This document shows positions 36,957-57,743 of a DNA stretch of 64,000 nucleotides, piece by piece. Each line of letters opens with the position of its first letter. Positions within the stretch are counted from its first letter, which is position 1. The stretch is taken from contig CM020618.1 in assembly GCA_009829735.1 (NCBI GenBank), forward strand, positions 18,275,346-18,339,345. Direction: 5' to 3'. The notes beneath the pieces are model-generated. The model ran no database searches. It was not told where the DNA came from and saw only the letters and a list, made by a program, of their open reading frames with translations. The translations under genes were made by a program, and so were the position numbers. The stretch comes from Pyropia yezoensis (lineage: Eukaryota > Rhodophyta > Bangiophyceae > Bangiales > Bangiaceae).

Positions 36957-36958
36957 CT

Positions 36959-36976
36959 TGGTGGAGCAGCAGGGGA
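36959..36976 (+). other. E3 primer-binding site, tRNA-Ala
   Basis: The same 18-nt complement of tRNA-Ala as in E1 and E2. Confidence 0.93.
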
Positions 36977-37075
36977 CTGGGGTAAACTTTACCTCCGGGT
37001 GTTCCCGGGAGTTGGGGGCCCTCTGTCTCAGAGGAACGGTGGTCTTGGCCTGTGTCGTGAAAATCGATAGCCAAC

Positions 37076-37987
37076 ATGGCTGGTTCGGATCCCCCGTCGT
37101 CCGTGGAGTACACAGGTGACGCACGTACTCCAGTGCCTTTGAATACTGGTAAGACACTGGTAGGTTTACCTGGGGTCGCAGAGGGGCTAGAGGCCCCTCA
37201 AGCCAGCAGGACTGGGAGTGCGGGCGGGCAACTGGCCACCCCGACTCAGTCGGGAGTTCATCCGGGTGACACGCCCGATAATGGTGGACCGAAGTCCGGC
37301 CACCGAGCGGTACACTCAACGGAAACGTCTCAAGGTGAGAGGACTGTCCCCGCGGGATCCACTCGGGTTGGAGCCAACTTCGGCATGGAGCCCTCGCCAA
37401 CTAGGCTTTCGGGGGACGGCGGACCTCCGTTGGTCGGCGAGGGGCTCGCGCCATTACCTACGGTTGAGACCCCTGGGGACCGTGGTTACTCCCCAAGTGG
37501 ACTCCCGGAGGCTGTCTGAGACTCAACTCGAGTCGGAAGCTCCCTCCTGGCGGAAACTGTCCGTCGGAAGGCGACTGATGTGCTACGGCAGACTTTGCCG
37601 GAACGAGTGGTCACGATGACGAACTCCATTCTGAATCAGATCGCGGCGAGTTTGCCTGATGGACTCCATGTCCAGACCGGAGTAGGGCTTCCTAGCCCGC
37701 AGACGCAGGGAACACTTCCCCCTACGCCTGCAAAGGGGCGTCCCGAGCAGGGATCGACCCCTGTGACTCCCAACGTGGGGGCCACACCAACTTCGTCGGG
37801 GCGGATGCCTTCTACTGGGGCGACCCCCGCAGAGACGCCGGTGGCTACACTTAGTCCGCCGGTGGAGACGGCAGAGAGTACGGGTCAGTTTACCCCTCTG
37901 CCTCAACGGCTGTACCCTCAACGAGAGGTGCCGCCCAAGATCCAGGTAGCCAACCCGGTCTACCAGAGGATCTTTGACTGTGAGACC
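37076..37987 (+). pseudogene. gag: E3 gag, 5' segment
   Basis: Starts MAGSDPPSSVEYTGDART. An in-frame TGA at 37517-37519 replaces the Arg codon seen in E2 (PEADRDST). The frame then continues to FDCET, where the solo LTR is inserted. Homologous throughout to E2 gag. Confidence 0.88.
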
Positions 37988-38610
37988 TGTTGTTGCTTGA
38001 TAGGGGAGTAGGGTGGGTGTCCACGGTGAGGTGGTCGTGTGAGCAGAGCAGGTGTGGTTGAGTGCGAAGGTGCTTTGTTGGTTCTCTCCCCTTTCTCCTC
38101 GATCCGACCTACTCGACCCCGTATATGTACACGGGGTCGGCTCCCTCGCCGGCACTCACTCGCACTCGCCGGCACGCACTCGCACTGACACTAGTACGCA
38201 AATCAAACTAACATTCGATCAAGCACAACCCACAACAGCAGCAGACTTGGGGGTGCAACGAAGGCTTGTGACACGTGGCTGCCACGTGTCACACCCAACT
38301 TGGCCTTGTTCTTGCCCGGCGCCAGGGACCTCCTTAGGACACAGAAATGAAGGTGCCACTTGGCGCGCTCTCAGACGCCCACGTGGCAGCCGATCTTGAA
38401 AATCCGCGTCGCCTGGAAGCGCCAAAACGGGCAACATTGAGAGCTGCCAAGTGCCTTGGAGCGAATCCGTCCACGTGTCAGCCACGTGTCCGTAGAAGGC
38501 CCATTCTTGTCCACGTGTCGGCCACGTGTCTTGGTCACCTTGGCGATCAACGTCTTGTCCAGCAGCAGGGTGCCCTCGGCCATACGCGGGAACAAGTAAC
38601 AGTTCCAACA
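37988..38610. mobile_element. Solo LTR of a third family
   Basis: 623 bp with 5'-TGTTG...CAACA-3' ends and a 5-bp TSD agacc (37983-37987 and 38611-38615), inserted in E3 gag. No internal coding sequence. The TGTTG/CAACA ends are typical of many LTR elements. It carries seven CACGTG cores between about 38270 and 38530, including a near-perfect palindrome of 12-bp arms at 38268-38292. Presumed product of recombination between two LTRs of a full element. Confidence 0.85.
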
Positions 38611-38615
38611 AGACC

Positions 38616-39650
38616 TACGCCCTCGACAACAAGTCGGTAGCGTATGGTCTTGTGCAGGCCCGAACTATGGGCGGTGCCAAGAAGGATGTAACTCACTCCT
38701 TTGGGCACAAGGCGGAGTGGGATGGACCTCCCCCCCTCCGTGTCTTTGAGTTCCTACGTCGGTTCACAAAAGCCTGTGACGACAATGCTATAAGTGAAGG
38801 CATGTCCTTTTATTTGTTGCAGGAGTTTTCTAAGGGTGACCTCCGGACGGACATTATGTCCGTCATGCCCAGTTCCTTAAGTGGAGGAGCTGGTGAGGTG
38901 ACGTCCTACTTGGAGCTTGTCAACTGGTTGCTGAGAGCCATGGTTGATGAGGCCGTGTTGGCTTCTCAAGTTGAGGAGTTCACGCAGGCCCACCAAGAGG
39001 ATGATGAGGACGAGTTGTCCTTTGTTGAGCGTGTACGCAAGCTCAACAATCTCTGTGGCTTCCTTCATACACAACCTGTGGTGAAGAGTCGCTTTGTGGA
39101 AGGTCTCCACTGGTCGGTTCGTATGGAGACCCGGGAGCATAATACCTCCCGGGCTACGTTGGCCGAGTTGGCCCGTTTTGCATATCGCCGGGGTGAGGCT
39201 TTCCGCATGTTGCGGGATGAGCAACGCCGAGAGCGGCAGGCCGAGTTGGCCAACGAGAAGGAAGAGGCTCGCAAAGCGAGAGAGCTACGAGAGGCCCGCC
39301 GAATCCGTAAGGATAAGGTAGTGGGCGCTGTGGAGACTTCCCACAGCAGTTCGACGGGCTCCCAAGTTGGGAAGACCTTCCCGGGAGCTGAGAATCGGTG
39401 TTGGAACTGCAACGCCGATGGACACTGGGCCTATGACTGTCCCCAGTTGAGCAAGCGCATTCAACAGCTTGTTAAGAATGCTAGCCAGAAGACGGCAACG
39501 GGCAAAGTGCGCCCCCGCCGCGAGGGCGGCACGCAGTCGGTGGCGGCTGTGGCTGGGCCCTCGGCAGAGGGAGCGGACACGTCGTCCTCGGACTCGTTAT
39601 CCTCTCCTTCGTCCTCGGATCCCGAAGCCAAGTCGGCGGGAAACGAGTGA
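38616..39650 (+). pseudogene. gag: E3 gag, 3' segment
   Basis: Resumes at YALDNKSVAYG exactly where E2 gag predicts. Includes WDGPPPLRVFEFLRRFTKAC and the CCHC knuckle CWNCNADGHWAYDC, and ends KSAGNE. No lesion in this segment. Confidence 0.9.
39638..39644 (+). promoter_or_regulatory. -1 frameshift slippery site GGGAAAC (E3)
   Basis: G GGA AAC in gag frame, then GAG TGA. The -1 frame gives CGA GTG ACC and enters pol. Identical in sequence and position to the E1 site. Confidence 0.65.
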
Positions 39651-42600
39651 CCGCTGGAGCTGGACGTCCCAAGCTCACGGCATTAATCCCGGCCAAGTGG
39701 GCCAAGGGGGCGAACAAGCCTGGTCGGATACTGCGGCGGCCTAAGGGGGTCCGCCCACCTCGGGTCGGACTCCCCAAGAGCGTAAACCCACGTCGGGTCT
39801 TCGCCGTGCTGACGGGAGAGAACTTTCAAGTGGCTGGCCGGGTGCAACTAGCCCCAGGCCGCGCGTGTTGTGCCCGTATCATACTTGATACAGGCTCTGG
39901 CGCTTCCTTGGTACGCAAGTCGCTGTTACCAAAGGAGGTGGAACTCCAACGTTGGAGCTCGAAGGCCAACCATATGCTTGACATCAATGGTGGGGTACTT
40001 CCCATTGTTGGTGCTGTGACCCTGCCAACTAGGTTGGGGTCCCACGAGGTCAACGTGACCTATGGTGTCGTCGAGATCATGTCGGTGCCCCTGCTTCTGG
40101 GCACCCCCTATGTTGGAACTCAAGTGCCTTTGACTTGTGGCCCTGAGTACTGGGTCAAGCTGAAGAACGGGGAAACTATCCCCATCCTTGGCAAGGGGAA
40201 GTCTGTCGCTCCTGTGACAGTATCACAGTCGAAGCCTGTTTGTTCTGTGAGAGAAGGGTTTACCGCTACTTTGCGTTTAGCCCGTAAGGTCACGTTGCCT
40301 CCGAACTCGGTGACACACGTTGACGTTGTAACTGACTTCACGGGGAACGGGTTGGTGCACCCTAACCCCCGTCTTGCTCGTAAGCACCAAGTGCATGTTG
40401 CCCTTGGCACGATGGACTCCAAAGCCGGAGTCCCGTGGAGGATACAAGTGATGAACCTCAGTTCCTCACCGAGCTACTTCAAGTCGGGAGCCAAGTTTGG
40501 CTATATCGACCAACGTGAGGGACCCGTGGTTGCGGTCACCCTCAACGCGGGACAGGCAAGTCGCCAGGAACCCGTGGAGGAGAAGCACGAAGCCAAGTCG
40601 GCGGCTCCTCCTCGACCCCATGTGGAGATGAAGAACGTCCCACCCAAGTTGCGGGTTCAAGTTGAACGCCTCTTGGACCGATACCACGAGTTGTGGGATG
40701 GTCAACTGGGATTCTTGAAGGCTACAGAACACCGGATCGAGTTGAAACCTGGTGTGACCCCTACACACCAACAACCGTAGAGAGGGGGGCCCCGTTCAAG
40801 GGCCCTTGTCAAAAAGCAAGTTGCTCGCATGGAGGCCCTGGACGTCATTGAGGCCAGCAACGCCGAGTGGGCGAGCCCTGTCGTGATCGTCCCTAAACCG
40901 GATGGGACGCCACAGTTCTGTATTGACTACCGTAAGCTCAACGAGAGCACGGTGAAGGACAGTTATCCTCTTCCTAGGATGGACGACTGTCTGGACTCGC
41001 TGGGGGAGGCGAACGTGTTCTCCACCCTAGACTGTAACGCGGGGTACTGGCAAATTCCCATCACCCCGGAGAACAGGCATAAAACTACCTTTACCTGTCA
41101 CTGTGGTACCTACCAGTGCAAGCGCCTACCGTTTGGACTGTGTAACGCGCCGGCAACTTTCCAGCGCGCTATGGACATGATTCTGGCCGGAGTACGGTGG
41201 CAGATCTGTCTTGTGTACCTAGACGATATCATTGTGTTCTCCCGAAGTCCGGAGGAACACATTGGCCATCTTGGCCAGGTGTTCAAGCTACTTGCTGACG
41301 CCGGTGTGTCACTGAAGGCGAGTAAGTGCCACCTCTTTACTCAAGAGGTGGAGTACTTGGGACATGTTGTCCATCCGGGGCGTCTCAGTGTTAACGAGAA
41401 GAACTTGAGGGCCATTCGTAAGGCTCAGTACCCCCGGACCCAGACCCAGATGAGGAGCTTCCTCGGGATGTGTAACGTGTACCGACGTTTCACCAAGGGC
41501 TTCGCCAAGGTGGCGAAGCCGTTGAATGAGCTAGTGAGCTCAACGCTACCGAAGAACCTGCCTCCCCCAAGTCGGGTGGAGCAGGAATCCTTTGAGACTC
41601 TTCGGGACCTTCTGCTGAAGCCCCCTATCCTGGCTATTCCCAGGTTGGGAGGCCACTACATCCTAGATGTGGACGCTAGCTACGACCAACTTGGTTGTGT
41701 GTTGCTTCAGCAGCAGCCGGACAAGGAGTACCTGCCGGTGGGATACTTTAGTAAGGGGCTGAACTCGGCCGAGAAGAACTACGGAGTCACCGAGTTGGAA
41801 GGACTCGCAGTGGTGTGGGCGGTGACGTCACTTCGTCACTACCTGGAGGGTGAGAAGTTCCTCATCCGCTGTGACCACCGCGCGTTGCAGTTCATCTTTA
41901 AGACGGACTGTACGAACACTCGTCTCAACCGGTGGAGGGTGCGACTGGCACCCTTCAACTTTGACATTGAATACCGACCTGGCAGGCAACATGCCCTTGC
42001 CGACGGCCTCTCTCGGGTACCTACCGAGGGGCTGGACACTAACCCAGTCGATGAGGACATCCCCATCGTGGAGGCAGTCACACGCTCGGGGCAGGTGTTA
42101 AGCCCCGAGGTGCCAGGGAACAAGAAGTACTTGCCCCTGTCACTGGACGCAGTCGTACGGGCTCAGGCCGAGGATCCCTTTTGCAAGTCGCAGAGGGAGG
42201 CGCTGGACGCAGTGGCGGAGACGTGCTTCTTCATCGGAGATGATGGCCTCCTCTTGAGGAGGGGGGCAATACAGGCGACTGAACAGCTTGTCATCCCCGC
42301 ATCCCTCAAGGAGAGTATCATTTAGCGGGAGCACAACGCTCCCACAGGTGGACACCTGGGGTCTAGCAAAATATACCAGACCCTGAGGACCAGGTACTAC
42401 TGGGCCTCCATGGTGGTGGACATCTATAGTTGGGTGGCCACGTGCACAAATTGTGCACAGAATCGCCTCATGGAACGGCGGCCAACTACGGCCATCATGC
42501 TGTTTCCAGCCAAGGAGCCCTTCGCCGCGTTGGCAATGGACCTCCTTGGACCTCTACCAGTGACCAAGGATGGAAACCAGTACCTCCTGGTTATCTGTGA

Positions 42601-43630
42601 TCGCTTCACGAAACTGACGCGAGCGATCCCCCTGGCAGAGGTCACGGCCATGTCGGTCGTGTCCGCCTTCCTGGACCACTGGGTTGCCGCGTATGGCATC
42701 CCAGATAGTACCTTGTCGGACAACGGTCCGCAATTTGCGTCCGTACTGTTCCAAGGAGTGCTGGATATGTTGGGGGTTCGAGCAAACTATGCCACCACCT
42801 CCCACCCTCAAACTAATGGGCAGGTGGAGCGCTTCAACAAAACTATCGTTCGGCAGCTACGCCACTACGTGGGTGAGCACGTCAAGACGTGGGACCAATA
42901 CATCTCTATTTTGACAACTGCCTACAACTCGCAGATTCACTCTTCTACGGGGGAAGTACCCTTTTCTTTTGTGACCCCACGCCGTGTGCGGTCTATAGCT
43001 GTACAGCGGTCACCCCCAAGTAGGGAGGCCGGTGGTCGGACACCTACTCCTACTGAGAGTAAGGCGGAGTTCGCCGCTAGGCTTGAGTTACTTATCCCTA
43101 AAGTCAGGGCTGAGATGGACAAGGCCCAGAAGATTTACAAACGTACCTTCGACAAGAAGGTACGCATTTCCAAGCACGTCCCAAAGCAGGGTGACTGGGT
43201 GCTGGCACATTCGCATACCCCAACTGGGGGTAAGCTGGTGTTCCAAACGAAGGGACCATACCAGGTCCTTCGTACAGATGGACGAAGGTTCACCATCGAA
43301 AGTGACGATGGGGTCCGTACAGTAAACGGACAGGACGTGGCGAAAGTGGCGCCACCTCCTATAGGCGACCCAGCTTGGGCGCGTGCGCCACAAGCATGGC
43401 GTTTGCCTTACCTGCCTGCGGCCAAACAGGGTCCGCAGGAGTACGTGTTCGACAAGTTCGTCGACCACGGGTGGGATGAAGATACCAACCGCCTCATGTT
43501 GAGGGTGCGTTGGTTTGGCTATCGTGCCAAGGATGATACCTGGGAGTATCTAGTGGACCTCCCTGCTGAGAAGGTCCGGGCGTACTGTGCCCGGAACAAC
43601 ATAGACCCTGACCGACCTCCCTCAACGTGA
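39645..43630 (+). pseudogene. pol: E3 pol, two nonsense codons
   Basis: The same domain order as E2: protease (ILDTGSGASLVRKS), RT (FCIDYRKLNES, YLDD), RNase H (DVDASYDQLGC), integrase (HHCC with CTNC; LSDNGPQF; QVERFNKT) and chromodomain (NRLMLRVRWFGYRAKDDTWEY). TAG at 40778-40780 (TAT in E2) and TAG at 42323-42325 (GAG in E2) break it. From about 41040 to 42040 it is almost identical to E2, much closer than elsewhere, which suggests gene conversion or a shared recent source for that segment. Confidence 0.92.
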
Positions 43631-43739
43631 GAGAAGGTCAAGGGGCAGTGCCAAGAGAGTCTTCAAGTCGAAGTGGTATGCAAAATGGCTTTAACTATAG
43701 CCCTTACCCTCTCACTCTAACTGCAATGGCAGCTGCCGA

Positions 43740-44712
43740 CTAGGCACGCATGTTAGCCTCCCCACCCCCGCGACACTCACTCTCACGTGGAGGGGAGCGT
43801 CGCGACCCACGTCGGTGACGTTCACTGCTAGTCGGTGGAGCCGATGGCTCCAAGTCGGAGCCATCGTGACCAACTCGGTCACGTGCGTGGCGACGACTGC
43901 GGCTGTTATCTTTCTTGGTCTTGCGCGCAAGTTGGCGACGCAGACGCCGGACCGACTCGGTCTTGGTCGGGGTGGATGACTCCGACTCGGAGCAAGACAA
44001 CTCGTCTTCCGACACGGATGGAGAACGCCGCGAGTGGCGGCGACGACGACGAGGAGGTGATTACGCCCGGCTCGCCCGACGCTTGCCGCGCCCAAGTGGG
44101 GCCGACAAAGGCATGATGGAGCCGATACGAGCCAACTCGGCCGTCATAAACTCTGCAACCGACTCGCAACTAGCAGTCGAGACGACAGTGCGAACGCGCT
44201 CCTCAAGTTGAGTAGCCTCCGACGTCTGGAGGGTGGCAGCCGACGCGGCCATCCACGACAGAGTGCGCACCAACGTGGTGATTAGCATCTCCGAAGTCAA
44301 GGGCGCGGACGGCAACACTAACTTGGGGTTGGCCGTGAGTAGAGTAGCTCCCAAGTTGGGAGACACAGGCGTGGATGACTTCACCGCGACGCCGATCGGG
44401 ATGTCCCCGTGCGGCTGGAACGGGACAGGAGGAAGAGGAGGGGCTCGCCGACTCGGCGGAGCCGGAGGGTAGCCGCGACTTTGAGTTGGGGCCGCCAGAG
44501 CGCCTTGCGCCAGGTACTCGTGGTGGGTAGCCACACCCATCACCGTCTCCTTGTCCGGGGGTCGCGCATTGTGGCGCTCCACCCCTGGGGCATACGGGTA
44601 GTCCCCGATGCCCAACTCCTCCTTCAATACCACGCGGCCGTCGTGAAGTTCACGACCGACCCAGACGAACTGGCAAAGTGTGCCGTCGTCTTTGGGCCCA
44701 CCGGAAGATCGG
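43740..44712 (-). pseudogene. E3 antisense ORF, C-terminal segment
   Basis: Homologous to the C-terminal half of the E4 ORF: LCQFVWVGRELHDGRVVL, a Pro-rich region, then the Arg/Ser tail. A stop at 44061-44063 precedes the Arg/Ser tail where E4 has Tyr. Cut at 44712 by E4. Confidence 0.8.
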
Positions 44713-45180
44713 TGTGGCAAAAACCACTCGCACACACAGTACCCAAGTTGGGGCGGTGTGCGAGGGCTGCCTCCCGTGTCGGGGGAACCGGAAGAAGTGC
44801 AAGTCGCACACACTCTATCCCTGTTGTGGGGCAATCCCCCCACGGACAAACAAGAAGATGGTGTGTGGTCCAACAGTTTCTTGGTCGGGACGGGGACGCA
44901 GGGCCAAGCCCCGCTGTCCCTCCCCTTATCCCCCCAGGGTCCACTCAGAATCTCGCCACTCAGAATCTCCCACCCCAGCACCTGCCCACCGGGCCACACG
45001 AAAATTCAAGACGATAAATGCAGAAAACCCTCAAATCCAAGTTGGATTTACTACTAAGCTAACTATCCCGAACTTAGGGAATATGGACCCAAATGCAGGG
45101 GGAGGAACGGATCAGGCTAGTGGCCTGCCGCCCCTTGCATGGCACGTGTTGCCCCCTACCTGGGGGTCAATACTGCCACA
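44713..45180 (-). repeat. E4 3' LTR
   Basis: 468 bp, family B in reverse orientation. Confidence 0.95.
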
Positions 45181-45193
45181 CTCCCCTCTCCTC
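45181..45193 (-). other. E4 polypurine tract
   Basis: gaggagaggggag on the minus strand, adjoining the 3' LTR. Confidence 0.85.
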
Positions 45194-45498
45194 AGTTCCG
45201 ACCGACCCGGTCGGCCCTGTGAGGGGGTGCGTAAACGCACGTCTCGGCGTAGGGGGGGACGCGACTTGCTGTCCCCCCTTGAGTACGTAACGCGGATGTG
45301 GAGGCGGTCACGTTGGCCGCCCCTCTCCTCAAGCTTGCCCACTTGGCAGCTTGCTCTCCTCGGTTCACACCTCACCACCACCACCACTTCTCCTTCACCT
45401 TACACGGGGCCACCCCACGCTGGGGAGGCCACCCGTTTACCCACGATCCGAGTCCCCCTCAACTCGAGGCGGGTCTCGTGCCGCGATAGCCAGGACGT

Positions 45499-45519
45499 CT
45501 CTCCCCAACTTGGGGAGAG
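45499..45519 (+). promoter_or_regulatory. Perfect hairpin 2 nt before the antisense ORF start
   Basis: A 10-bp perfect inverted repeat (CTCTCCCCAA and its complement) with a 1-nt loop, ending two bases before the ATG at 45522. Present in E2; partly decayed in E3. It could hinder or regulate ribosome entry, or mark the DNA; inference only. Confidence 0.5.
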
Positions 45520-45521
45520 CC

Positions 45522-47465
45522 ATGGCGACTCCGGGAGTGGAGACGGACTCTCTCGATGAGCGTATGGAGGACACCTCCTACGGTGCAGCGCCTGCCGGGA
45601 CTTCCGGCGGGGGCTCCGCGATCGCTCCGGGGGGTGGGACTCCCGCGTCACCCGGCTTTGGGTTGACGGCAGGATCTCCCCCGGAGGCGGGACAAGTTGT
45701 CCCGCGTGAGGCCTTGGGGCGGTGGTTTTACCCCGCTTGGCCTCTGTATGAGGAGGGGTTGACTGTTCTTCGCTGTGGCCGACTCGGCGCAGCGATGGGT
45801 CGGGTATGGGACCGCCTACGGGAGAAGTATCCCCGTAGGGTCGGGTTCCCTGCCGGCTTCAGGACGGACCAGTTTGCCTTCCTGGACGACGAGGAGGTCG
45901 AGGACGTGCAGCGGGCCAAGGCCATGGTGGACCGCGGGGGAACTATCCCGGGTCCCGGCGACTTGCCGACCTTCACTTGGGACGCGGTGGCAACTCGCCC
46001 CCCGTACCTTCACGAGGCCGATCCGCACACTCATCACTTTGATGTGCGGATGGAGAAGGACTTCCGGCGAGGTCCCTACTTGGTGACCTCGGCTCAACTT
46101 GAGTTTCCTCAGCAGTCTGCTGCCAGTAAGGAGCAATACTACCCGAAGAAGCCCGAGTGGTGGCCTCAAGTTGAGGTCCCCTACGGGTTCCCGGCATTGT
46201 TGCCACGGTTGCTTGACCACTTCGGCTCCGTCATGTTGACGGCTGGCCCTGATCATCTGGTGTGGGCCATGTTGGCCACCCAGTGGCTCCTCGAGGTCAT
46301 GTCGACCTGGGTGTCATGTGTTCAGCGGCGGGGGATGCTCTGGCATCTCCCCCTCCGGCTCATCCAGGGTTTGGAACAGCTCACCCCTCAGCTAGTTGCT
46401 GAGGGGTGCTCGTCAGGACAACTCACTCTACTTGAGGAGATGCTCCGCCTCCACAAGTTTATCGAGTGGGAGAGCATTGAGCACAAGTTGCGCCGCCCCA
46501 CTCGGGGGCCCAAGGACGATGGCGCACTTCGCCAGTTCGTATGGGTCGCTCGTGAACTTCACGACGGCCGTGTGGTCCTACGAGAGGGGTTGGGCATCGG
46601 GGACTACCCGTATGCCCCGGGGGTGGATCGTCACACTGCGCCACCCCCGGACAAGCCCATAGTTATGGCTGTGCCCTCATATGATGACCATATGACTCAA
46701 CCTACTGCGGGGGCCCCAAGTCGGGGTCGCAGTTACACCCGGGTACCGCCACCTCGGCGTGCCCTTCCGCTTCCTCCTGTTCCTTTCCAGCCTCACGGGA
46801 ACATCCCGATCAGCGTGGCCGTGGAGTCATCCACACCGGTGTCTCCCAACTTGGGGGCCACCCTCCTGACGGTATACCCCAAGTTGGTGTTACCGCCCAC
46901 GCCTCTAACCTCAGAGATGATGATCACCACGTTGGTGCGCACCATTTCCTGGTTGGCCGCGTCGACCGCAACCCTCCAAAGTTCCGAGACTCCTCAACTT
47001 GAGGAGCGCGTTCGTACTGCAGTGGCGACCGCGAGTTGCGAGTCGGTGGCGGAGTTTATGACGGCCGAGTTGGCTCGCATTGGGGCTATTATGCCCCAGC
47101 CAACCCCACTTGGGCGTGGCAAGCGTCGTGCGAGCCGGGCATACTCGCCTCCTCGCCGTCGTCGCCGTCACTCGCGGCGCTCTCCCTCCGTGTCGGAAGA
47201 CGAGTTGTCTTACTCCGTCTCGGAGTCCTCTACCCCATCGGAGACGGAGTCTGTCCAGCGTCTGCGTCGCAAACTTGCGCGCAAGACCAGGCAGAAGAGT
47301 AGCCACGGTCGGCGCCACTTGCGCGACCGTGAGGGGCGCGACGGTTCCGACTTGGAGCCGCCGCCCCTTCCAACGAGTGGAGACCGTTATCGGCGTGGGT
47401 CTCGCCGCTCGCCTCCACGTGAGGGCGAGGGCCGTGAAGTGGGAGAGTCTAGCATGCGTGCCTAG
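45522..47465 (+). CDS. Intact antisense ORF (family B aORF), unknown function
   Basis: A 647-residue protein encoded opposite to gag-pol, between pol and the PPT. Starts MATPGVETDSLDERMEDTSY. Residues about 20-85 are Gly/Pro/Ala-rich. About 85-320 looks folded: ALGRWFYPAWPLYEEGL, VWDRLREKYPRRVGFPAG, HHFDVRMEKDFRRGPYLVTS, a hydrophobic helix block (LLDHFGSVMLTAGPDHLVWA), RRGMLWHLPLRLIQGLEQL, and EEMLRLHKFIEWESIEHKL. About 430-525 is Pro-rich with a helix. From about 527 the tail is Arg/Ser-rich (RRRRRRHSRRSPSVSEDELS) and could bind RNA or carry nuclear-localisation signals. No signal peptide or membrane segment, so not an envelope gene. I recognise no family. Copies in E2 and E3 are broken; family A has a homologue. 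The leader (45194-45521) is CT-rich, like the host gene leaders. The in-frame sequence upstream of the Met is not conserved as protein. Confidence 0.8.
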   Translation: MATPGVETDSLDERMEDTSYGAAPAGTSGGGSAIAPGGGTPASPGFGLTAGSPPEAGQVVPREALGRWFYPAWPLYEEGLTVLRCGRLGAAMGRVWDRLREKYPRRVGFPAGFRTDQFAFLDDEEVEDVQRAKAMVDRGGTIPGPGDLPTFTWDAVATRPPYLHEADPHTHHFDVRMEKDFRRGPYLVTSAQLEFPQQSAASKEQYYPKKPEWWPQVEVPYGFPALLPRLLDHFGSVMLTAGPDHLVWAMLATQWLLEVMSTWVSCVQRRGMLWHLPLRLIQGLEQLTPQLVAEGCSSGQLTLLEEMLRLHKFIEWESIEHKLRRPTRGPKDDGALRQFVWVARELHDGRVVLREGLGIGDYPYAPGVDRHTAPPPDKPIVMAVPSYDDHMTQPTAGAPSRGRSYTRVPPPRRALPLPPVPFQPHGNIPISVAVESSTPVSPNLGATLLTVYPKLVLPPTPLTSEMMITTLVRTISWLAASTATLQSSETPQLEERVRTAVATASCESVAEFMTAELARIGAIMPQPTPLGRGKRRASRAYSPPRRRRRHSRRSPSVSEDELSYSVSESSTPSETESVQRLRRKLARKTRQKSSHGRRHLRDREGRDGSDLEPPPLPTSGDRYRRGSRRSPPREGEGREVGESSMRA

Positions 47466-47576
47466 TTGGCAGCTGCCTTTGTTGTGAGAGTGTGAGGGTT
47501 AGGGCTGTAGTTTAAAGCCACTCTGCGTACCACTTCGACTTGAAGCACTCTCTTGGCACTGTTGCTCGGCCTTCCC

Positions 47577-48715
47577 TCACGTTGAGGGAGGGCTGTTAGG
47601 GTCTATCTCGTTCCGGGCACAGTACGCCCGGACCTTCTCAGCAGGAAGGTCCTCCACATACTCCCACGTATCATCCTTGGCTTTGTAGCCAAACCAACGC
47701 ACCCTCAACATGAGGCGGTCAGTATCCTCATCCCAGCCGTGGTCGATGAACTTGTCGAACACGTACTCCTGCGGGCCCTGTTTGGCTGCAGGCAGCGAGG
47801 GCAGGCGCCACGTTTTCAAAGCACGCGCCCAAGCTGGGTCGCCTGCAGGCGGTGGTGCAACTTTGACCACGTCCTGTCCGTTCACTGTGCGGACCCCATC
47901 GTCACTTTCGATGGTGAAGCGCCGCCCATCAGTACGAAGGACCTGGTACGGCCCCTTCGTCTGGAACACCAACTTACCCCCAGTTGGGGTGTGTGAGTGG
48001 ACCAATACCCAGTCACCCTGCTCGGGGACATGCTTGGCGTTGCGCCCCTTTTTGTCAAAGGTACGCTTGTAGCGCTTTTGTGCTTTGTCCATCTCAGCCC
48101 TGACTTTAGGGATGAGGTGTTCAAGCCTAGCAGCGAACTCCGCCTTACTCTCAGTAGGAGTAGGCGTGCTGCCATCATCCTCCCTAGTTGGGAGCGACCG
48201 CCGCACAGCAATAGACCGCACGCGACGGGGGGTCACAAAAGCGAGGGGTACTTCCCCGGTAGATGAGTGAACCTGCGAATTGTAGGCAGTGGTAAGAATA
48301 GAAATGTATTGGTCCCACGTTTTCACATGCTCACTCACATAGTGGCGCAGCTGCCTAACAATAGTTTTGTTGAAGCGCTCCTTGACGAGGGCCCTTGAAC
48401 GGGGCCCTCCCCTATACGGTTGTTGGCGTATAGGGGGTACACCGGGTTTCAACTCGATCCGGTGTTGGGTGGCTCTCATGAGTCCCAATTGACCATCCCA
48501 CAACTTGTGATATTGGTCCAAGAGGCGTTCAACTTGAACCCTCAACCTGGGTGGAACACCCTCCATGTTTACCTGGGGCCGAGGAGAGGCGGCCGACTTG
48601 GCTTGATGCTTCTCCTTTCCGGACCTCGGGTCGCTACTCGCGCCCGCGTTGAGGGTGGCTGCTACTACCGGTCCCTCATGTTGGTCGATATAGCCGAACT
48701 TGGCTCCCGATCAAA
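47577..48715 (-). pseudogene. pol: E4 pol remnant: protease end / RT start fused to integrase end and chromodomain
   Basis: A frame runs from RLRVQVERLLDQYHKLW to RALVKE, then jumps directly to RFNKTIVRQLRHYV of the integrase C-terminal side and the chromodomain (DRLMLRVRWFGYKAKDDTWEY). RT catalytic core, RNase H and the integrase active site are gone. The deletion joins two copies of GGAGC present at both ends in E2, a microhomology junction. Trp in DDTWEY is kept, where E2 has Ser. Confidence 0.92.
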
Positions 48716-49143
48716 GATACTTTCTTTGAGGGTGGCGGGGGTAGCAACTTGCTACGACCCCTGTCACAGGCTCGAGCCCATCACCGACGAGTGAAGGTCC
48801 GCCGTCTTCCACCCGCCTAGTTGGCGACGGCTCTATGCCGAAGTTGAATCCAACCCGAGTGGATCTCGCGGGGACAGTCCTCTCACCTTGGGACGTTCCC
48901 TTTGAGTGTACCACCCGGTGGCCGAAGTGCGAACCACCGGTCCGAGAAAGACCCTCAGGGTGAACACCCGACTGGGTCGGGGTGGCGTACCGCCCGCACC
49001 GATACCCACGGCCCTGCTGGCTGGAGTGCCTCTAGCACCTCCGCGACCCCAGGTACACCCTGTGTCTGGCCAGTATTCAAAGGCGCCGGGGTAAAGTCGT
49101 CACCGGAGAGTTTCCCGAACGTCGGGAGGTCCGATCCAGCCGT
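48716..49143 (-). pseudogene. gag: E4 gag remnant, start codon lost
   Basis: Homologous to the first 140 or so codons of E2 gag. The ATG is ACG (49141-49143), with several further changes. It ends at a deletion junction near 48715 that joins it to the end of the protease, with a few unmatched bases. Confidence 0.8.
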
Positions 49144-49242
49144 GTTGGCTAACGATCCACACGACACAGTCCAAGACCACCGTTCCTCTGAGACAGAGGG
49201 CCCCCTACACCCGGGTGCACCCGGAGGTAAAGTTTACCTCTG

Positions 49243-49260
49243 TCCCCTGCTGCTCCACCA
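49243..49260 (-). other. E4 primer-binding site, tRNA-Ala
   Basis: The 18-nt complement of tRNA-Ala, minus strand, two bases from the 5' LTR. Confidence 0.93.
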
Positions 49261-49262
49261 AA

Positions 49263-49730
49263 TGTGGCAAAAACCACTCGCACACACAGTACCCAAGTTG
49301 GGACGGTGTGCGAGGGCTGCCTCCCGTGTCGGGGGAACCGGAAGAAGTGCAAGTCGCACACACTCTATCCCTGTTGTGGGGCAATCCCCCCACGGACAAA
49401 CAAGAAGATGGTGTGTGGTCCAACAGTTTCTTGGTCGGGACGGGGACGCAGGGCCAAGCCCCGCTGTCCCTCCCCTTATCCCCCCAGGGTCCACTCAGAA
49501 TCTCGCCACTCAGAATCTCCCACCCCAGCACCTGCCCACCGGGCCACACGAAAATTCAAGACGATAAATGCAGAAAACCCTCAAATCCAAGTTGGATTTA
49601 CTACTAAGCTAACTATCCCGAACTTAGGGAATATGGACCCAAATGCAGGGGGAGGAACGGATCAGGCTAGTGGCCTGCCGCCCCTTGCATGGCACGTGTT
49701 GCCCCCTACCTGGGGGTCAATACTGCCACA
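49263..49730 (-). repeat. E4 5' LTR
   Basis: 468 bp, family B, reverse orientation; nearly identical to 44713-45180. Confidence 0.95.
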
Positions 49731-49735
49731 ATCGG

Positions 49736-50706
49736 CGCAACTTGTGCTCGATGCTTTCCCACTTGATGATCTTATGAAGGCGCAGCATCTCCTCGAGTAG
49801 AGTGAGCTGGCCCGACGAGCACCCCTCAGCAACTTGTCGAGGGGTGAGCTGCTCCAAACCTTGGATCAGGCGGGGCGGGAGGCGCCAGAACATCCCGCGC
49901 CTCTGGACGCAGGCCACCCAGGTCGACATGACCTCGAGGAGCCAGATTGTTGCCAACATGGCAAACACTACGTGGTCCGGGCTAGCCGTCAACATGACGG
50001 AGCCAAAATGGTCCACCAACCGCGGTAGTAACGCGGGGAACCCACAAGGGACCTCAACTTGAGGCCACCACTCCGGTTTCTTGGGGTAGAGTAGCTCCTT
50101 GTTTGCCGGCGCTTGTTGCGCAAGCTCAAGTTGAGCCGAGGTCACCAAGTAGGGACCTCGCCGGGTGTCCTTCTCCATCCGCACATCGAAGTGATTGGTG
50201 TGCGGATCGCACGTACGAAGGTACGGGGGGCGAGTTGCCACCGCGTCCCACGTGAAGGTCGGCATGTCGCCGGGGCCCTCGGTGGTACCCCCGCGGGTCA
50301 ATAAGTTCTTGACCCGCTGCACGTCTTCGACCTCTTCGTCGTCGATGAAGGAAAACTGGTCCATCTTGAAGTCGGGAGGGAATCCGACCCTACGGGGGAA
50401 CTTCTCCCTTAGGCGGCCCCATATGCGATCGATCGCTGTGCCAACTCGGCCGTAGCGGATGATCACCAAGCCCTACTCGTATAGGGGCCAGGGTGGGTAG
50501 TACCACCTCCCCAACGCCTCCCGTGGAGTGACGGGGCCTACCTCCGGGGGAAAGCCTGCCGTCAACCCAGAGTCGGGTGGCGCAGGCGTCCCATCCCCCG
50601 GGGCAACCGCGGAGCTCCCGCCGGAAGTCCCGACGGGTGCTACAACGCAAGGCGCATCCTCCATGCGCTCATCGAGGGACTCAGACTCCACCCCGGAGTA
50701 TACCTT
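49736..50706 (-). pseudogene. E3 antisense ORF, N-terminal segment
   Basis: Homologous to residues 1 to about 325 of the E4 ORF (RIWGRLREKFPRRVGFPP, FDVRMEKDTRRGPYLVTS, FGSVMLTASPDHVVFA, RRGMFWRLPPRLIQGLEQL). The start Met is replaced (AAG at 50704-50706), and a TAG near 50470-50472 follows WPLYE. Cut at 49735 by E4. Confidence 0.85.
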
Positions 50707-51046
50707 GCCTCTCCCCAAGGTAGGGAGAGACAACTCCGTCGCAAATGCCCGAGGCCCACCTCGAGTTGAGGGGGACCTGGATCGGGGGTAGACCGGGGGC
50801 CTCCCCAGCGTGGGGTGACCCGGGGAAAGGTGGAGGGGATGAGAAGGTGCGGTGAAGGTGGAGCGAGATGAGGAGGTGCGCGATGCTAGGTGCAAGCTGC
50901 CAAAAGGGCAAGGTTGAGGGGATGGGCGGTCGACGCGACCGCCTCCACGTCGACGTGACGTGCCGGAAGACAGCGAGTTTCGCCCCCGGCGAGTGCAACA
51001 CACGCTTTTATACCCCTTCTCAGGGCCGACCGGGTCGGTCGGAACT

Positions 51047-51059
51047 GAGGAGAGGGGAG
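51047..51059 (+). other. E3 polypurine tract
   Basis: gaggagaggggag directly before the 3' LTR, identical to E2. Confidence 0.85.
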
Positions 51060-51528
51060 TGTGGCAGTATTGACCCCAGGTTGGGGGCAACACTTGCCAT
51101 GCAAGGGACGGCAGGCAACTGGCCTGACCCGATTCTCCCTATGCATTTGGGTTCATATTCCCTAAGTTAGGGATAGCTAGCTTAGTAGTAAGTCCAACTT
51201 GGATTTAAGAGTTTTCTGCACTTTATCGTCTTGAATTTTCGTGTGGCCCGGTGGGCAGGTGCTGGGGTGGGAGATTCTGAGTGGCGAGGTTTTGAGGGAC
51301 CCTGGGGGGATAAGGGGAGGGACAGCGGGGCTTGGCCCTGCGTCCCCGTCCCGACCAAGAAACTGTTGGACCACACACCATCCTCTTGTTTGTCCGTGGG
51401 GGGTTTGCCCCAAACCAGGGACAGAGTGTGTGCGACTTGCACTTCTTCCGGTTTCCCCCCGACACGGGAGGCAGCCCTTGGACACCGACCCAACTTGGGT
51501 GCGGGTGGATCAACCGTGTTTTGCCACA
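51060..51528 (+). repeat. E3 3' LTR
   Basis: 469 bp, family B; followed by the TSD cgcga. Confidence 0.95.
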
Positions 51529-51533
51529 CGCGA

Positions 51534-51991
51534 CGGCGGCGGCGCCCCGGGGGCTAAGCTCGTTCGTCGTCTCCTCCGCATCGCCCACCCTCGTCGGGGC
51601 AGAGACTACCCCTGCAGTGGATGGCGGGGTTTTACGACGGGGGTGCCTGGTCCTAGATGGTCCGCTGTTGCATCTGCCTCCGCGCGGTGGCGGTCGCCTC
51701 GCTGGCCACTATCATGGCGGCCATTGCGACAGCCACCGCACGAGGTACCGCGGTGCCAGCTGCGGCAGCCGCCGTTGCGGGGACAGCGACAGATTCTTGG
51801 AGCCTGACGGACGGGCATGGGCGGCGAGCTGGCACAGCCCGCCCCAGTGCTGGGGCGCGCCCTGGAGGGGGCGGCCGCCTGGCGGCGGCTGCAGCCGCAG
51901 ACGCCATCCATTCGTCATCGGCCGAGAGTGCAGTAGCGGCCACCGTGAGGCTCACGCGTGTGGCCCCCGCCCGCCGGGCAGCCATGCCCCT
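51534..51991. other. Unassigned segment between E3 and E5
   Basis: Continues the sequence before E3 (36155-36483): an Ala/Gly/Arg-rich frame stays open across the E3 target site, but GC-rich DNA does this easily. No recognised domain. Confidence 0.35.
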
Positions 51992-52530
51992 TGTGGGAGC
52001 TTGGGCCGGAATTTGGTACCAATACTTTCGAGATTCGGGTCAAGTAGACTCGACCGGAAGTCGAAATTCACCCGACCCACGATGGTGAGGCTTTTGACTT
52101 CTGGACGGAAATTCTACTAGGACTTCCGACATACTAGGGCAGGGTCATGCTGCTGGTATTTGTTTCTTATGATTTTTGCACGGGAGCCAGACGGATTTCT
52201 ACGCTTTGAGTGCTTCGCGTGTAGAGTGATTTGATTGGTTTGTTCCAGGGTTCATTTTCTGAGTGTTTTGAGGGGTTGCGTGAGCGTGTGAGAAGGGTTG
52301 ATAAGGAGGGACAGCAAGGCGGGGAGAGCCCACCTTGGCTGGCCAAGCAAGTAAACACCGTCTGGCTCCAACACATCTTGTTTGTGCCTTGGTGAGTGGC
52401 CCCGCTCACCACACGCAAGTCGCGTGTTCGGCTGTGTGGAGGTGCTTGCTTCCTGTGTCCTAAGTTGGGCTACCAGCAATACCCCTCTTCCTTCCCTGAC
52501 TCGGGGTTGGTGGTTGGGAGTACTGCTACA
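51992..52530 (+). repeat. Probable E5 5' LTR (fourth LTR type)
   Basis: The end is fixed by TACTGCTACA just before a PBS-like sequence. The start at TGTGGGAG (51992) is the best TG candidate but cannot be proved without a second copy. Not similar to family A or B LTRs apart from the ends. Confidence 0.5.
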
Positions 52531-52532
52531 GT

Positions 52533-52550
52533 TGGTTGATCAGCGGGGGA
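52533..52550 (+). other. E5 primer-binding site, different tRNA
   Basis: TGGTTGATCAGCGGGGGA, placed as in the other elements but complementary to another tRNA 3' end; no such tRNA gene is in the window. Confidence 0.6.
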
Positions 52551-52847
52551 GAGGATATCGACTTTGGTACCTCCCTTGACCGGAGACGGGACCAAGTTGG
52601 CCCCTCTCCCCCTTCGGCACCGAGACTTCCGGTGACACGATCGACTCGCCTACGTTCCGAGCGATCGCTGGGTGACGAGTTTGGCCACCGTGAGTCTTGG
52701 TTGGAGACCCAGAGTTTCGGGAAACCTCACCGCCTTCCTTGAGGTAGGTCGAGGGGTGGAACGTGCTTTAGGAACTCCGTAGCTGACGATCCCCGACTCT
52801 GGACACCGTTTGGTCGTTTTGGTTGACTCCACGTGACTTGTGTGGAG

Positions 52848-54650
52848 ATGGCTGGCGAGGGACACCCCCCCATTGCGCCGAGTGTACCTGGGGAGGCGGA
52901 GCGTAGTCCTTCCCCGACTGGCGGAGTACCACCCAGGCCGGGCAGTGCGGAAGGGGTGGGTCCAGAGGTTGGACCCCGACGGCGGTCGCCCAGGTTCCTT
53001 CCCAGGCCGTCCCCGAAAGAGACGGGCGGAGTTCGCCCTTCTCCGGTGGGAGCGCCGAGCCAGCGTCAGGCTCTGGTAACCTCTTCGGGGAGTGACGACA
53101 CTCACTTCGGCATGGGACCGCCGACCGGCAGAGGTGACGGGACGGGGAGTTCCGTACCCCGGGTTGGTGGGTCCGCGCCACGACTGGTGCCGGAAGGACC
53201 AGGTGGGAGCTCGAGTCAAGCTCCACCTGGATCATCCGGTGTCATGGATGATTCGGTGATGTCCGCCATCGCACAAGTCGTGCGAGAGGAGGTGGGGAAG
53301 GCGTTGAAGGGGAACACCCCGCCGCCTGAGCAGGCCTCGAGACGGCAGAAACGACGGGAGATTCGACGTACTCTCCGTCGTTTGGTGGACTTGGAGTCCG
53401 AGTCCTCCGCAAGTGGTGAGTCGGGTGAAGAAGATCTTACCCGACGGGTTCGTGTGACTCAAACTGACCGTCCTGGGACTAGAGTCGTCCCAGGAAAGAT
53501 AGTGGTCAATAATCCACTGCTCAAGGATGTCTTCGACTGTGAGACATATGGGTTGGTCAACAAGTCGTTGACCTACTCGAATAGTCAGGCCCGTACCCTG
53601 GGCCGGCGCAAGAAGCACGTTGCGCAATCCTTCGGGGTTCGTTTAGAGTGGGACGGGACACCACCCCTGAAGGTCTTCCAGTTTTAGCGGAAGTTCGCAA
53701 AAGCCTGCGATGACAATGATGTCTCTGAAGCTGAAGCGTTTTTCATGCTTCAGGACTTCACCAAGGAGCCACTCTGCTCCGAGGTGATGAACGTCATGCC
53801 AAGTCGGCATGGTGGGAATCCAGGTGAGGTGACTTCCTACCTGGAGTTGGTGAATTGGATCCTTCGTCTTCACGCAGACGAGGCTTTCTTGGCTGGGCAG
53901 GTTGAAGAGTTCAACCGCGCCACCCAGAGTAAGGGTGAAGAGGAACGGGAATTCGCTGAACGACTCCGTCAGCTGAATGTCCTCTGTGGAACCCTACATC
54001 CCCAAGGAGTCATTAAGGGACGCTTTGTGGAGAAAGTCCACCGAGCAGCTCGAGCGACTGTGCGAGAGCGTAATACTCCGACCATGACTCTGGCGGAGTT
54101 GGCACGCATCGCCCAGACTAAGGGTGATGAATACCGCTGGCTCGTGTCTCAGCATCGAAAGGAACGAGAGAGGGAAGCTAAGGGAGTGGAAGCAAGTCGC
54201 TGCCGCAGAACTGCAAGGGTGCCCTCCTACACGCGGACGTACCCTGCAGTACCTTCGTCCTCAACTCGGGAAACGGAAGGCATGGTGGCCGCTATCCCTG
54301 ATAAGTCACAGGGAAAAGCGGGACCATCGGCGTCAATGAGTGATCGGCCGTGTTGGCAGTGTTCCAAGTCGGGACACTGGGCAGCCCAATGCCCCACTCT
54401 GGACGTTCGACTGAGAGCCCTGATGGCTCGTATCGGAAAGCTCGGTATTCCGAGGACTGATTCGGATACCCGGCCGCGCACCACACGTGTGACGGCCATG
54501 ACTCAACTTAAGTCAGAGGATGAGTCCACGCTTAAGAAGGGGGAAACCTCCTCCCCTAGCTCAAGTGGTGAGGGCACTCCATCATCCGAGTCGGATGAGG
54601 GAAACGCCTTGCCGCTTGGACTAAGACTGACCCAAAGGCTCCAGCGGTAA
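52848..54650 (+). pseudogene. gag: E5 gag, one nonsense codon
   Basis: Starts MAGEGHPPIAPSVPGEAE. The N-terminal Pro/Gly-rich region differs from family B. The core is clearly related (VFDCETYGLVNKSLTYSN, WDGTPPLKVFQF, VTSYLELVNWILRLHADEA). TAG at 53685-53687 stands where family B has Leu. CCHC knuckle CWQCSKSGHWAAQC near 54350, acidic Ser tail. The Met at 52848 is preferred over a GTG five codons earlier. Confidence 0.88.
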
Positions 54651-54795
54651 TGAAGCGGGTTGCTTCACACGCACCGACCCATGGGAGTGTGAAGGTCCTG
54701 ACTCGACCTCGAGGGGTGAGGCCTAGAGACAAGGCCCCTCCTCAGAAGCACGACCAGAGTCGGATTGTGTCAGTGCTGGTAGGAAGGAAGCAAAG
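54651..54795 (+). pseudogene. pol: E5 pol N-terminal stub
   Basis: In the -1 frame relative to gag: TRPRGVRPRDKAPPQKHDQS then RIVSVLVGRK, similar to RRPKGVRPPRVGLPKNVNPR and RVIAVLTGEN of E2. The match stops near 54795, where family A 3' sequence (ggaggatgacctcc repeat) begins. Nothing remains of protease, RT or integrase. Confidence 0.65.
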
Positions 54796-54992
54796 TAAGG
54801 GAGGATGACCTCCCCGAGTATTAACCAACCGGTAGAAGTTGGACGGGAGGCAAGACACCACTGAGCCAGAGGAAGTACTCCCCAGGGCAATCAACAGATG
54901 CAAGCAATGCCCCCAGAAGGGGATGAGGTTTACTCACTACTACCCGGCCACATTAAGGGCCACCGGGACCCTCACCCTCACAAAGCCAACCC

Positions 54993-57091: not shown

Positions 57092-57467
57092 GGTTTAAAA
57101 ACACCGGTAGCAGGGGCACCCCTCGCAACCGGGCTCGCACCGGTACGGTAAGCGAACCGGGACGAGCCGGGGAGAGTGCGGGCACCCGCACTGATAAGCA
57201 CTGCCCCGTGTAGATAGGTATGCGGCTATCGGGATAACCCGAGCCACACGGGGCCACCAGGGCGTTCCACCCGGGAACGGGGCCGTACGCTTCACCCACC
57301 CACGGGGTGAATCGAGAGGGGGCACCCCCTCCGCAACCGCCCCCGCGGCAACACGCGCGCGGGTCCCGCCCTCGAGACAGCCGCCCCTACCACCAGACAC
57401 CTGGTGGCGGATACGCAGGAAGCCCTCTCCATAACGGGAGTGACACGAAACCTGCGACGGAGAACCG

Positions 57468-57640: not shown

Positions 57641-57743
57641 TGCAGCGAACGGGCGTAAAGCCCCACGCAACTGGTAAAGGGTCGCGTGACAAGTGGACAT
57701 TCGGAAAGTCGAATGCGGATCGACCCGGGGACGGGCCGAATCT

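Follow-up and report, generated by a model that had tools for sequence, protein, structure and literature searches.

A conserved antisense gene in two families of Ty3/gypsy retrotransposons of the red alga Pyropia yezoensis

Within the 64,000-nucleotide stretch of Pyropia yezoensis DNA analysed here (the window), an open frame of 647 codons (45522–47465, + strand) lies across a retrotransposon, E4, and raises two questions: whether it is a gene, and what its product does for the element. The LTR positions and target-site duplication (TSD) place E4 on the − strand (5′ LTR 49263–49730, paired with the 3′ LTR 44713–45180; TSD ATCGG), so the frame is antisense to gag-pol, located between pol and the polypurine tract (45181–45193, − strand; sense-strand sequence GAGGAGAGGGGAG) with the adjoining 3′ LTR. 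E4 and its neighbours E1, E2, E3 and E5 are Ty3/gypsy LTR retrotransposons by their order of reverse transcriptase (RT), RNase H and integrase, their TG..CA LTRs, TSDs, primer-binding site (PBS) and polypurine tract; TSDs are 5 bp in E1, E2 and E4, and that of E3 could be read after a one-base shift of the LTR edge. E4 is young (LTRs 99.8% identical) and internally deleted, with gag and RT mostly absent and the integrase end fused to the start of the pol region at 48377–48381. The stretch spanning this junction recurred in 40 of 40 scored genomic places at ≥98% identity over at least 159 of 161 bp, and E4 is a member of an amplified, internally deleted subfamily.

We first consider whether the frame could be an accident of GC-rich composition or of the codon structure of a sense gene. 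Long spurious antisense frames are common in GC-rich DNA, and the window has a GC content of 62%. From stop to stop the E4 frame covers 45291–47465 (+, 724 aa; 647 aa from the ATG at 45522), whereas the longest frame in 1000 dinucleotide shuffles reached 389. Across the ORF the antisense frame contains no stop, compared with 12–25 in each of the other five frames (8–28 over five copies: E4 and the copies intact outside the window, L071 and L073 of the E4 family and L069 and L070 of the E5 family). The three sense-strand frames of E4 hold 12, 25 and 18 stops, leaving no overlapping open sense frame. A chance ORF was rejected on the absence of antisense-frame stops and the shuffle comparison, and we consider this explanation extremely improbable.

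Substitution patterns point the same way. Between E4 and L071 the antisense gene gave dN 0.009, dS 0.128 and w 0.07, with differences mainly at third codon positions. This strong bias begins at the ATG at 45522 (by codon position, 4/6/6 differences upstream and 2/2/19 just within the frame) and is present in the N-terminal, core, middle and tail segments. Across pairs of both families, antisense-frame dN/dS was well below 1, from 0.04 (E4 and L067) to 0.53: it ranged over 0.07–0.40 in 14 E4-family pairs and 0.28–0.53 in nine E5-family pairs, a check proposed beforehand that came out in favour of a protein-coding gene. Constraint was weaker than on pol, where w was 0.10–0.15 in five of six pairs, compared with mostly 0.2–0.4 for the antisense gene. 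All 68 scored near-identical genomic copies of the E4 ORF are open; fetched diverged copies have mostly decayed, with 12 of 37 free of stops and frame-shifting indels, 7 of these 12 being near-identical to E4. The E4 antisense ORF is thus a real protein gene under purifying selection. L064, which by its coordinates has the E4 deletion junction, gave w 0.10 against E4. The E4 antisense gene is also 99.8% identical to that of L002, which runs on into pol; recombination between the deleted and pol-bearing lineages is therefore likely, and it confounds any selection test within the non-autonomous subfamily.

The preliminary description had reported a long antisense ORF in every element that keeps its 3′ region. 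The gene is present in E1 to E5, but it is intact in E4 only. In E2 (LTRs 21798–22266 and 30705–31173, TSD GCAAC) it is in pieces (28424–30366, −), the longest open frame being 453 aa. The E3 gene is interrupted by E4 itself, which inserted between an N-terminal open piece (49735–50472, −; 79% identical to E4) and a C-terminal one (44061–44711, −; 75% identical). The E5 gene is split into an N-terminal open piece (55944–57386, −), the first part of which precedes the likely start, and a C-terminal open piece (54993–55943, −). E1 carries its gene in two parts, 31174–32888 (−) and 21125–21797, with E2 inserted between (coordinates of the earlier sequence reading); E1 positions 31340–32181 match E5 DNA at 75.5%.

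We then asked how the antisense genes of the two families, E2/E3/E4 and E1/E5, are related. A block aligned by eye between their proteins was borne out as a core domain at E4 residues 139–319 (45936–46478, +) by BLASTP, hhalign and a shuffle control: the E4 and L069 proteins matched at BLASTP E 1e-9, the profile-profile comparison of the E4 and E5 families was significant (hhalign E 3.7e-5, probability 71%), and 300 shuffles of the E4 core against L069 gave z 16.1. The shuffle controls were clear for the E4 core and marginal for the diverged L072 core. With this homology and dN/dS below 1, the proposal of a conserved antisense gene common to two families holds, although the accompanying statement that gag and most of pol set the families apart was overstated. 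Pol is 46% identical between them over about 1000 aa, Gag shows 24% identity across 214 aa (E 4e-17), and E1–E4 have a common PBS. Since homology between the families extends to gag, pol and the antisense gene alike, the antisense gene appears from sequence to have been inherited along with the element; common descent would suffice, and transfer between dissimilar elements is unneeded. Relatives extend to Pyropia vietnamensis, where MMPV_009242, MMPV_008948 and MMPV_008454, annotated as hypothetical proteins, are 44–60% identical to the E5-family protein. Conservation across both families and across species is further evidence against a chance ORF.

Could the gene instead have been captured from a host, with no role specific to the element? 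A process resembling retroviral gene transduction can give rise to extra ORFs, as described in PMC11963269, which offers a route of gain. This reading is nonetheless very improbable given that the gene occupies the same place in both families and that no recognisable cellular homologue was found among 7998 candidates scored per search, the P. vietnamensis and EukProt matches being known by sequence alone. The E4 protein had no match in Pfam, and a scan of viral contigs found no relative. Weak single-member Pfam matches among 15 members, to DUF6214 (E 0.014) and Fer4_19 (E 0.17), were taken as noise, as was the best hit of a PDB profile search (2-methylisocitrate lyase, E 0.036). Rfam gave nothing over 13700–58200.

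The protein has an acidic, probably disordered N-terminus in which Gly, Ala and Pro are abundant; after it come the conserved core (about 180 residues), a linker rich in Pro and a C-terminal part. The E4 family (E2/E3/E4) adds the Arg/Ser-rich basic tail previously noted for it (residues 531–647; 47112–47462, +), with a net charge of +17; E4 also has the basic clusters KRR, RRRRR and RRK. The E5 family has neither this tail nor E4's clusters, only RRR/RRRR near residue 658, so the tail and clusters cannot be the shared function. By hydropathy averages, no 19-residue window is strongly hydrophobic (maximum Kyte-Doolittle mean 1.23–1.58), and this, together with the antisense orientation, agrees with the earlier judgement that the protein is not an envelope. 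AlphaFold models were poor (mean pLDDT 36.0 and 38.1).

This layout prompts a structural reading, in which a second capsid-like or nucleic-acid-packaging protein would serve the virus-like particle and bind genomic RNA through its basic tail. In E4 the conserved core, for which helices appear only in low-confidence models, is followed by just such a tail, and the gene accompanies gag at a similar between-family divergence (24–25%). We regard a particle role as fairly unlikely: the E5 family lacks the basic tail, and the antisense position would give no obvious route to Gag-like stoichiometry. BLASTP of both antisense proteins against both Gags, moreover, returned only a 15-residue match (E 0.16), by which a Gag duplicate was rejected.

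With moderate confidence, and by analogy, we instead favour an accessory gene carried by a Ty3/gypsy lineage of a red alga, encoding a nuclear factor whose binding to DNA or nascent RNA of its own element would raise or protect that element's expression. We infer the following sequence of steps. An antisense transcript would start in or beside the 3′ LTR, which is its possible source, and run head-on toward pol; the protein would enter the nucleus, where it would bind DNA or nascent RNA of its own element; and, once bound, it would raise or protect element expression in a regulatory or anti-silencing role. The basic clusters of E4, its tail of net charge +17 and the lack of a hydrophobic segment are consistent with a nuclear factor. 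The analogy is with the products of plant antisense ORFs at this position, of which, in the accounts of PMC7264820 and PMC11963269, Grande GENE23 is nuclear and Retand TRP28 is predicted to bind DNA.

A contrasting possibility is that the protein or its RNA represses transposition of its own element as a form of copy-number control. If the 3′ end is transcribed in the antisense direction, the product would overlap the genomic RNA, and a dsRNA route has been raised for plants in a review (PMC7264820). Self-limitation is nevertheless quite unlikely, as selection acts on the protein sequence and not on RNA alone, and the carrier family has many near-identical copies, young E4 among them.

The nuclear-factor reading can be set beside several known systems. 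As described in PMC11963269 and PMC7264820, the antisense ORFs of plant Retand/Tat-lineage elements (TRP28, PF04195; maize Grande GENE23; rice RIRE2) likewise lie between pol and the 3′ LTR, are frequent in young copies and have a proposed nuclear or DNA-binding role. Here the host is a red alga instead of a flowering plant, and PF04195 (TRP28, Transposase_28) is absent from E4, from all 15 aligned members at E≤10 and from the whole genome by HMMER, the filters of which drop most weak matches. Retand is called a non-chromovirus lineage, whereas one integrase here ends in a weak chromodomain match (Chromo PF00385: 19.1 bits in L071, 12.2 in L069 and 11.4 in E1 pol, below the Pfam cut-off of 25.1; E2 pol and L070 had no listed match). 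The earlier term 'chromovirus-like' has backing only under that cut-off. The genes are comparable by position and direction, with no sequence relationship detected. The antisense genes of HTLV-1 (HBZ) and HTLV-2 (APH-2) also lie near the 3′ LTR, and their products are nuclear according to PMC11963269; unlike these, E4 has no detected bZIP, as it lacks any Pfam match, and there is no sequence relationship. Outside plants, an antisense mRNA is described for the mussel LTR retrotransposon MchSLE-1 (PMC10974842).

An unexpected feature of the two families is their short palindromes. The odd palindrome CAASTTG had 54 of its 57 window matches in the E4 family, spread over LTRs, gag, pol and the antisense gene at a density of about 2 per kb, and was rare elsewhere across the window and 73 fetched loci of the two families. 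Fifteen lie in E4, one of them (45506–45512) just before the antisense ATG. The E5 family has mainly even-centred palindromes with 2–4-base centres, such as GGGN4CCC. These palindromes are possibly cognate sites of the antisense proteins.

VANDALs, which are DNA transposons, offer a parallel. The VANC21 motif YAGTATTAY is enriched in its own VANDAL family in Arabidopsis (PMC5735166, PMC10398659). VANC anti-silencing proteins, like the E4 protein, are element-encoded accessory proteins accompanied by a short motif concentrated in their own family. VANC motifs are mainly non-coding, share one orientation and are often tandemly repeated, whereas the palindromes here are dispersed through LTRs and coding regions as candidate sites.

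No clear G-U preference on either strand was seen among single palindrome changes (G-U type, sense/antisense: L070 versus L069 4/9, E1 4/2, L019 5/4, L014 4/2), and we therefore prefer DNA-level palindromes over one-strand RNA hairpins. At homologous CAASTTG sites of the E4 family, a tally over distinct site strings gave 172 changes that were single breaks, 60 that were single GU, 28 double Watson-Crick and 18 double broken; most break pairs, and in copies that are mostly decaying this argues against strict maintenance. The palindromes may not be insertion targets: none of 36 LTR edges had a CAASTTG within 40 bp on the one side read (34 outer flanks; the inner primer-site side for L039 and L050), although E4 itself lies 7 bp from a CAACTTG of E3 (49738). 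It is an improbable conjecture that each family's own palindrome code and its antisense protein form a matched pair, a symmetric (dimeric) factor recognising its own palindromes or hairpins and keeping only those copies active. If true, this would be VANC-like self-recognition that arose independently in retrotransposons and is embedded in coding sequence.

Flowering plants are the main source of described antisense accessory genes in LTR retrotransposons, alongside the antisense genes of retroviruses, and the function of the plant genes is unsettled in these accounts (PMC7264820, PMC11963269). A protein with no detected relationship to the plant or retroviral ones, found in the same position and under clear purifying selection in two red-algal families, suggests that a common need has led to the position being reinvented. 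The gene's function is testable, given the high copy number, the intact copies and the candidate DNA sites. About half of the P. yezoensis crop genome is reported to be repeats, mostly LTR elements (PMC7423979), and antisense genes of such elements may explain some of its 'hypothetical protein' annotations.

The gene opposite gag-pol, between pol and the 3′ LTR, represents a real, selected and unrecognised antisense gene family of red-algal Ty3/gypsy elements. In E4 (45522–47465, + strand), the coding frame contains no stop and the remaining five frames contain 12–25 each. The same one-frame-open pattern recurs in loci elsewhere in the genome, L071 and L073 of the E4 family (E2, E3 and E4; family B of the preliminary description) and L069 and L070 of the E5 family (E1 and E5; family A); across these four and E4, the closed frames contain 8–28 stops each. 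Within 45181–47600 an open frame extends for up to 724 aa, whereas 1000 dinucleotide shuffles averaged 201 aa and never exceeded 389.

Codon-level comparison (Nei-Gojobori) of the antisense genes of E4 and L071 gave dN 0.009, dS 0.128 and dN/dS 0.071 over 647 codons. The ratio was 0.26 for E4–L073 and 0.32 for E4–L072, and it ranged over 0.07–0.40 across all 14 E4-family pairs and 0.28–0.53 across nine E5-family pairs, the two highest of which include the C-terminal piece of the broken E5. These values lie well under 1 in both families, in keeping with the preliminary description of a conserved antisense gene. For pol, five of six pairs gave 0.10–0.15, and the remaining pair gave 0.50 at a dS as low as 0.021. 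Sorted by codon position, E4 and L071 differ at 2/2/19, 2/2/21, 0/2/10 and 2/2/9 sites through four consecutive segments of the ORF, and at 4/6/6 sites in the open frame that precedes the ATG; E4–L073 showed a weaker contrast (9/8/11 upstream, 9/10/25 just inside the ORF). Because the third-position bias is present inside the ORF and absent upstream, constraint starts at the ATG. Among 37 loci compared with the E4 gene, many over only about 577 codons, 12 had neither a stop nor a frame-shifting indel, seven of them being the near-identical L002–L008; the others are decayed, several at 54–68% identity being probably misaligned. Ratios in this comparison ran from 0.04 (L067) to 0.91 (L048).

The P. 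yezoensis genome is reported to consist of 48% repeats, mainly LTR retrotransposons (PMC7423979). Element borders in the window were set by window-versus-window BLASTN and inspection of the edges. E1 (+ strand; LTRs 13725–14087 and 33477–33840, 97.0% identical; TSD CCGCG) contains the inserted E2 (+; LTRs 21798–22266 and 30705–31173, 99.4%; TSD GCAAC). E3 (+; LTRs 36489–36957 and 51060–51529, 97.2%; TSD CGCGA, with the LTR edge shifted one base) likewise contains E4 (−; LTRs 44713–45180 and 49263–49730, 99.8%; TSD ATCGG), and E5 has a 3′ LTR near 57757–58117. E1–E4 share a primer-binding site with TGGTGGAGCAGCAGGGGAC (14088, 22267, 36958, 49262) despite the differing LTRs of E1 versus E2, E3 and E4. 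Both nested insertions, E2 (21797/31174) and E4 (44712/49731), lie inside the host element's antisense gene, and the flank of L006, read by eye, also resembles the E5-family antisense gene. The sequence flanking the L064 LTR carries a perfect inverted repeat, GACGGTGCTGT..ACAGCACCGTC, near the insertion.

The antisense proteins of the two families are homologous, as had been proposed from alignment by eye. BLASTP of E4 against L069 gave E 1e-9 (25% identity over 189 aa), and hhalign of the two family alignments, both shallow, gave a significant match (E 3.7e-5, probability 71%, 181 columns). Smith-Waterman z-scores of the E4 core (residues 139–319) against L069, L070 and P0008 were 16.1, 10.3 and 12.5, exceeding all 300 shuffles. 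The more diverged L072 core scored 7.5, 4.6 and 5.2, its real scores against L070 and P0008 (63 and 65) being hardly above the best shuffles (62 and 63). Homology between the families extends to Gag (E 4e-17, 24% over 214 aa) and to pol, where identity is 46% across about 1000 aa. Since all three proteins are homologous between the families, the antisense gene was probably present in their common ancestor and has probably diverged about as fast as Gag.

In three protein searches for relatives outside the genome, each with 7998 candidates scored, the E4 protein gave one match; the E5-family query gave five, including three P. vietnamensis proteins annotated as hypothetical (51, 44 and 60% identity); and the combined alignment gave eight at E≤0.01, namely P0005, already among the earlier matches, and seven E4-family-type fragments of 143–209 aa from EukProt or unnamed sources. 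Pfam, PDB and Rfam searches returned no usable match, and TRP28 (PF04195), the domain of the plant Retand antisense ORF, was not found in the searched genome. Among the matches listed from the Pyropia/red-alga and antisense-ORF literature, where subscription journals are sparse and a printed account may exist, none described an antisense gene in a red-algal LTR element.

Intact copies are numerous in the genome searched (107,475,971 bases, 11 contigs). With the E4 protein, all 68 scored copies (of 3674 first-look candidates) were stop-free, with open frames of 723–724 aa; this is the best-matching set, so that the share of intact copies cannot be read from it. When diverged queries were used, open frames reached at least 800 aa in 75 of 126 scored E5-family matches and at least 724 aa in 61 of 150 E4-family matches, lengths that are upper values as stops within a match were read through. 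E4 itself (44713–49730) is 5.0 kb long and E2 9.4 kb; E4 lacks most of gag and RT and retains its LTRs, the antisense gene and portions of gag and pol. A 161-bp stretch over the deletion junction was matched at 98–100% identity along 159 bp or more in each of the 40 places scored (2541 candidates), and 17 of 40 scored matches to a longer query span the junction. Eight of these 17, including E4, belong to the intact-ORF set of the E4-protein search, and one further match, near 29.62 Mb of contig C1, has an open frame of 800 aa (an upper value). E4 belongs to a subfamily that has been amplified, shares one internal deletion junction and has kept the antisense gene. From its missing parts, we infer that the subfamily is non-autonomous. 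The E4 antisense gene is 99.8% identical to that of L002, which runs on into pol, and the youth of the copies may be the reason for the gene's retention.

The two families also differ in their palindromes. The odd palindrome CAASTTG recurs in the antisense region. Of its 57 occurrences in the window, 54 fall within E2 (21 observed/0.83 expected), E3 (18/0.91) and E4 (15/0.42), where no other 7-mer palindrome comes close. It is dispersed over LTRs, gag, pol and antisense gene at about 20 per full element (21798–31173, 36489–51529), for example at 45506, 45693, 46167 and 46995 and at the LTR sites 45038 and 44744. The other three sites lie in the left flank (12606), the E1 3′ LTR (33544) and the 51530–58117 stretch holding E5 (52593); the E1 gag-pol and antisense stretches and the E5 antisense stretch contain none. 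E4-family loci carry 302 copies in 166.8 kb (41 of 41 loci) and E5-family loci one in 130.9 kb (1 of 32), same-family loci not being independent. Flanking bases differ between sites, yet are complementary to each other: in E2 at 17 of 19 sites for the first pair (shuffle mean 4.6) and 15 of 19 for the second (7.0), and in E3 at 12 of 16 (4.9) and 13 of 16 (6.7).

Palindromes in which six or more of the seven pairs match were counted against 60-bp block shuffles (observed/expected). In the E4 family odd palindromes are in excess (E2 54/14.6, E3 53/14.9, L072 22/9.7) and even ones barely raised (20/14.7, 19/13.5, 15/10.2). In the E5 family even palindromes are in excess (E1 83/18.8, L069 60/12.7, L070 47/12.0, E5 28/10.8) and odd ones less raised (E1 31/19.0, L069 21/11.5, L070 15/12.4), the E5 stretch having nearly equal numbers (odd 26/11.6). 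The several-fold excess of E5-family even palindromes and hairpins involves 2- or 4-base centres, such as GGGN4CCC (13725–21797, 31174–33476, 51530–57756; L069, L070). By loop length, hairpins are mainly in excess at loops 2 and 4 in E1, L069 and L070 and at loops 3 and 5 in E2 and E3. Because smaller excesses occur at other loops (E1 loop 3 31/9.8, loop 5 26/8.7; E2 loop 2 14/7.1) and every loop length is raised in the E5 stretch, parity by family is a strong tendency with exceptions. All three genes of E1 and E2 (gag, pol and antisense) show the palindrome excess; the control, mirror repeats in these genes, does not go beyond roughly twofold (E1 pol 9/4.8, E2 pol 8/3.9) and mostly stays near 1 or lower. 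The left window flank shows a mild palindrome excess (even 55/38, odd 64/36) alongside an excess of mirror repeats (153/76), and the right flank gave 12/12 even and 20/11 odd.

With even-hairpin stems defined in L070, stem positions changed less than other positions in all four E5-family comparisons (L069 0.056/0.161, about one third as often; E1 0.032/0.123; L019 0.055/0.100; L014 0.039/0.104), and odd stems showed almost no difference against L069 (0.144/0.153). Part of this effect may be general, since the control class (loops 6–10) was lower too (L069 0.081/0.154, E1 0.045/0.118). E4-family odd stems (L073 0.054/0.082, E3 0.072/0.130, L072 0.204/0.212, E2 0.016/0.013) are indistinguishable from their control class (L073 0.045/0.081, E3 0.158/0.125, L072 0.158/0.213, E2 0.006/0.014), except perhaps against E3. 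The boldest reading, that the antisense protein is tied to the family-specific palindromes, is made slightly less probable by these control-class results, and we consider it quite unlikely. We know of no described system resembling such palindromes; none appeared in the literature among the matches listed, which is weak evidence.

The antisense protein consists of an acidic N-terminus, the conserved core, a Pro-rich linker and a C-terminal part, and has no strongly hydrophobic stretch. The AlphaFold models are too poor for interpretation; the E5-family model places helices in the C-terminal part with low confidence. Only the E4 family has a tail with Arg/Ser repeats (net charge +17). Antisense accessory ORFs are already known as a kind; those of plant Retand, Grande and RIRE2, for which a regulatory role in the nucleus or through DNA binding has been proposed (PMC11963269, PMC7264820), match the red-algal gene, a new variant in Ty3/gypsy elements, in position and direction. 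On these grounds, we favour a reading in which the product, whose transcription, localisation and binding we infer, would be a nuclear factor supporting its own element's expression.
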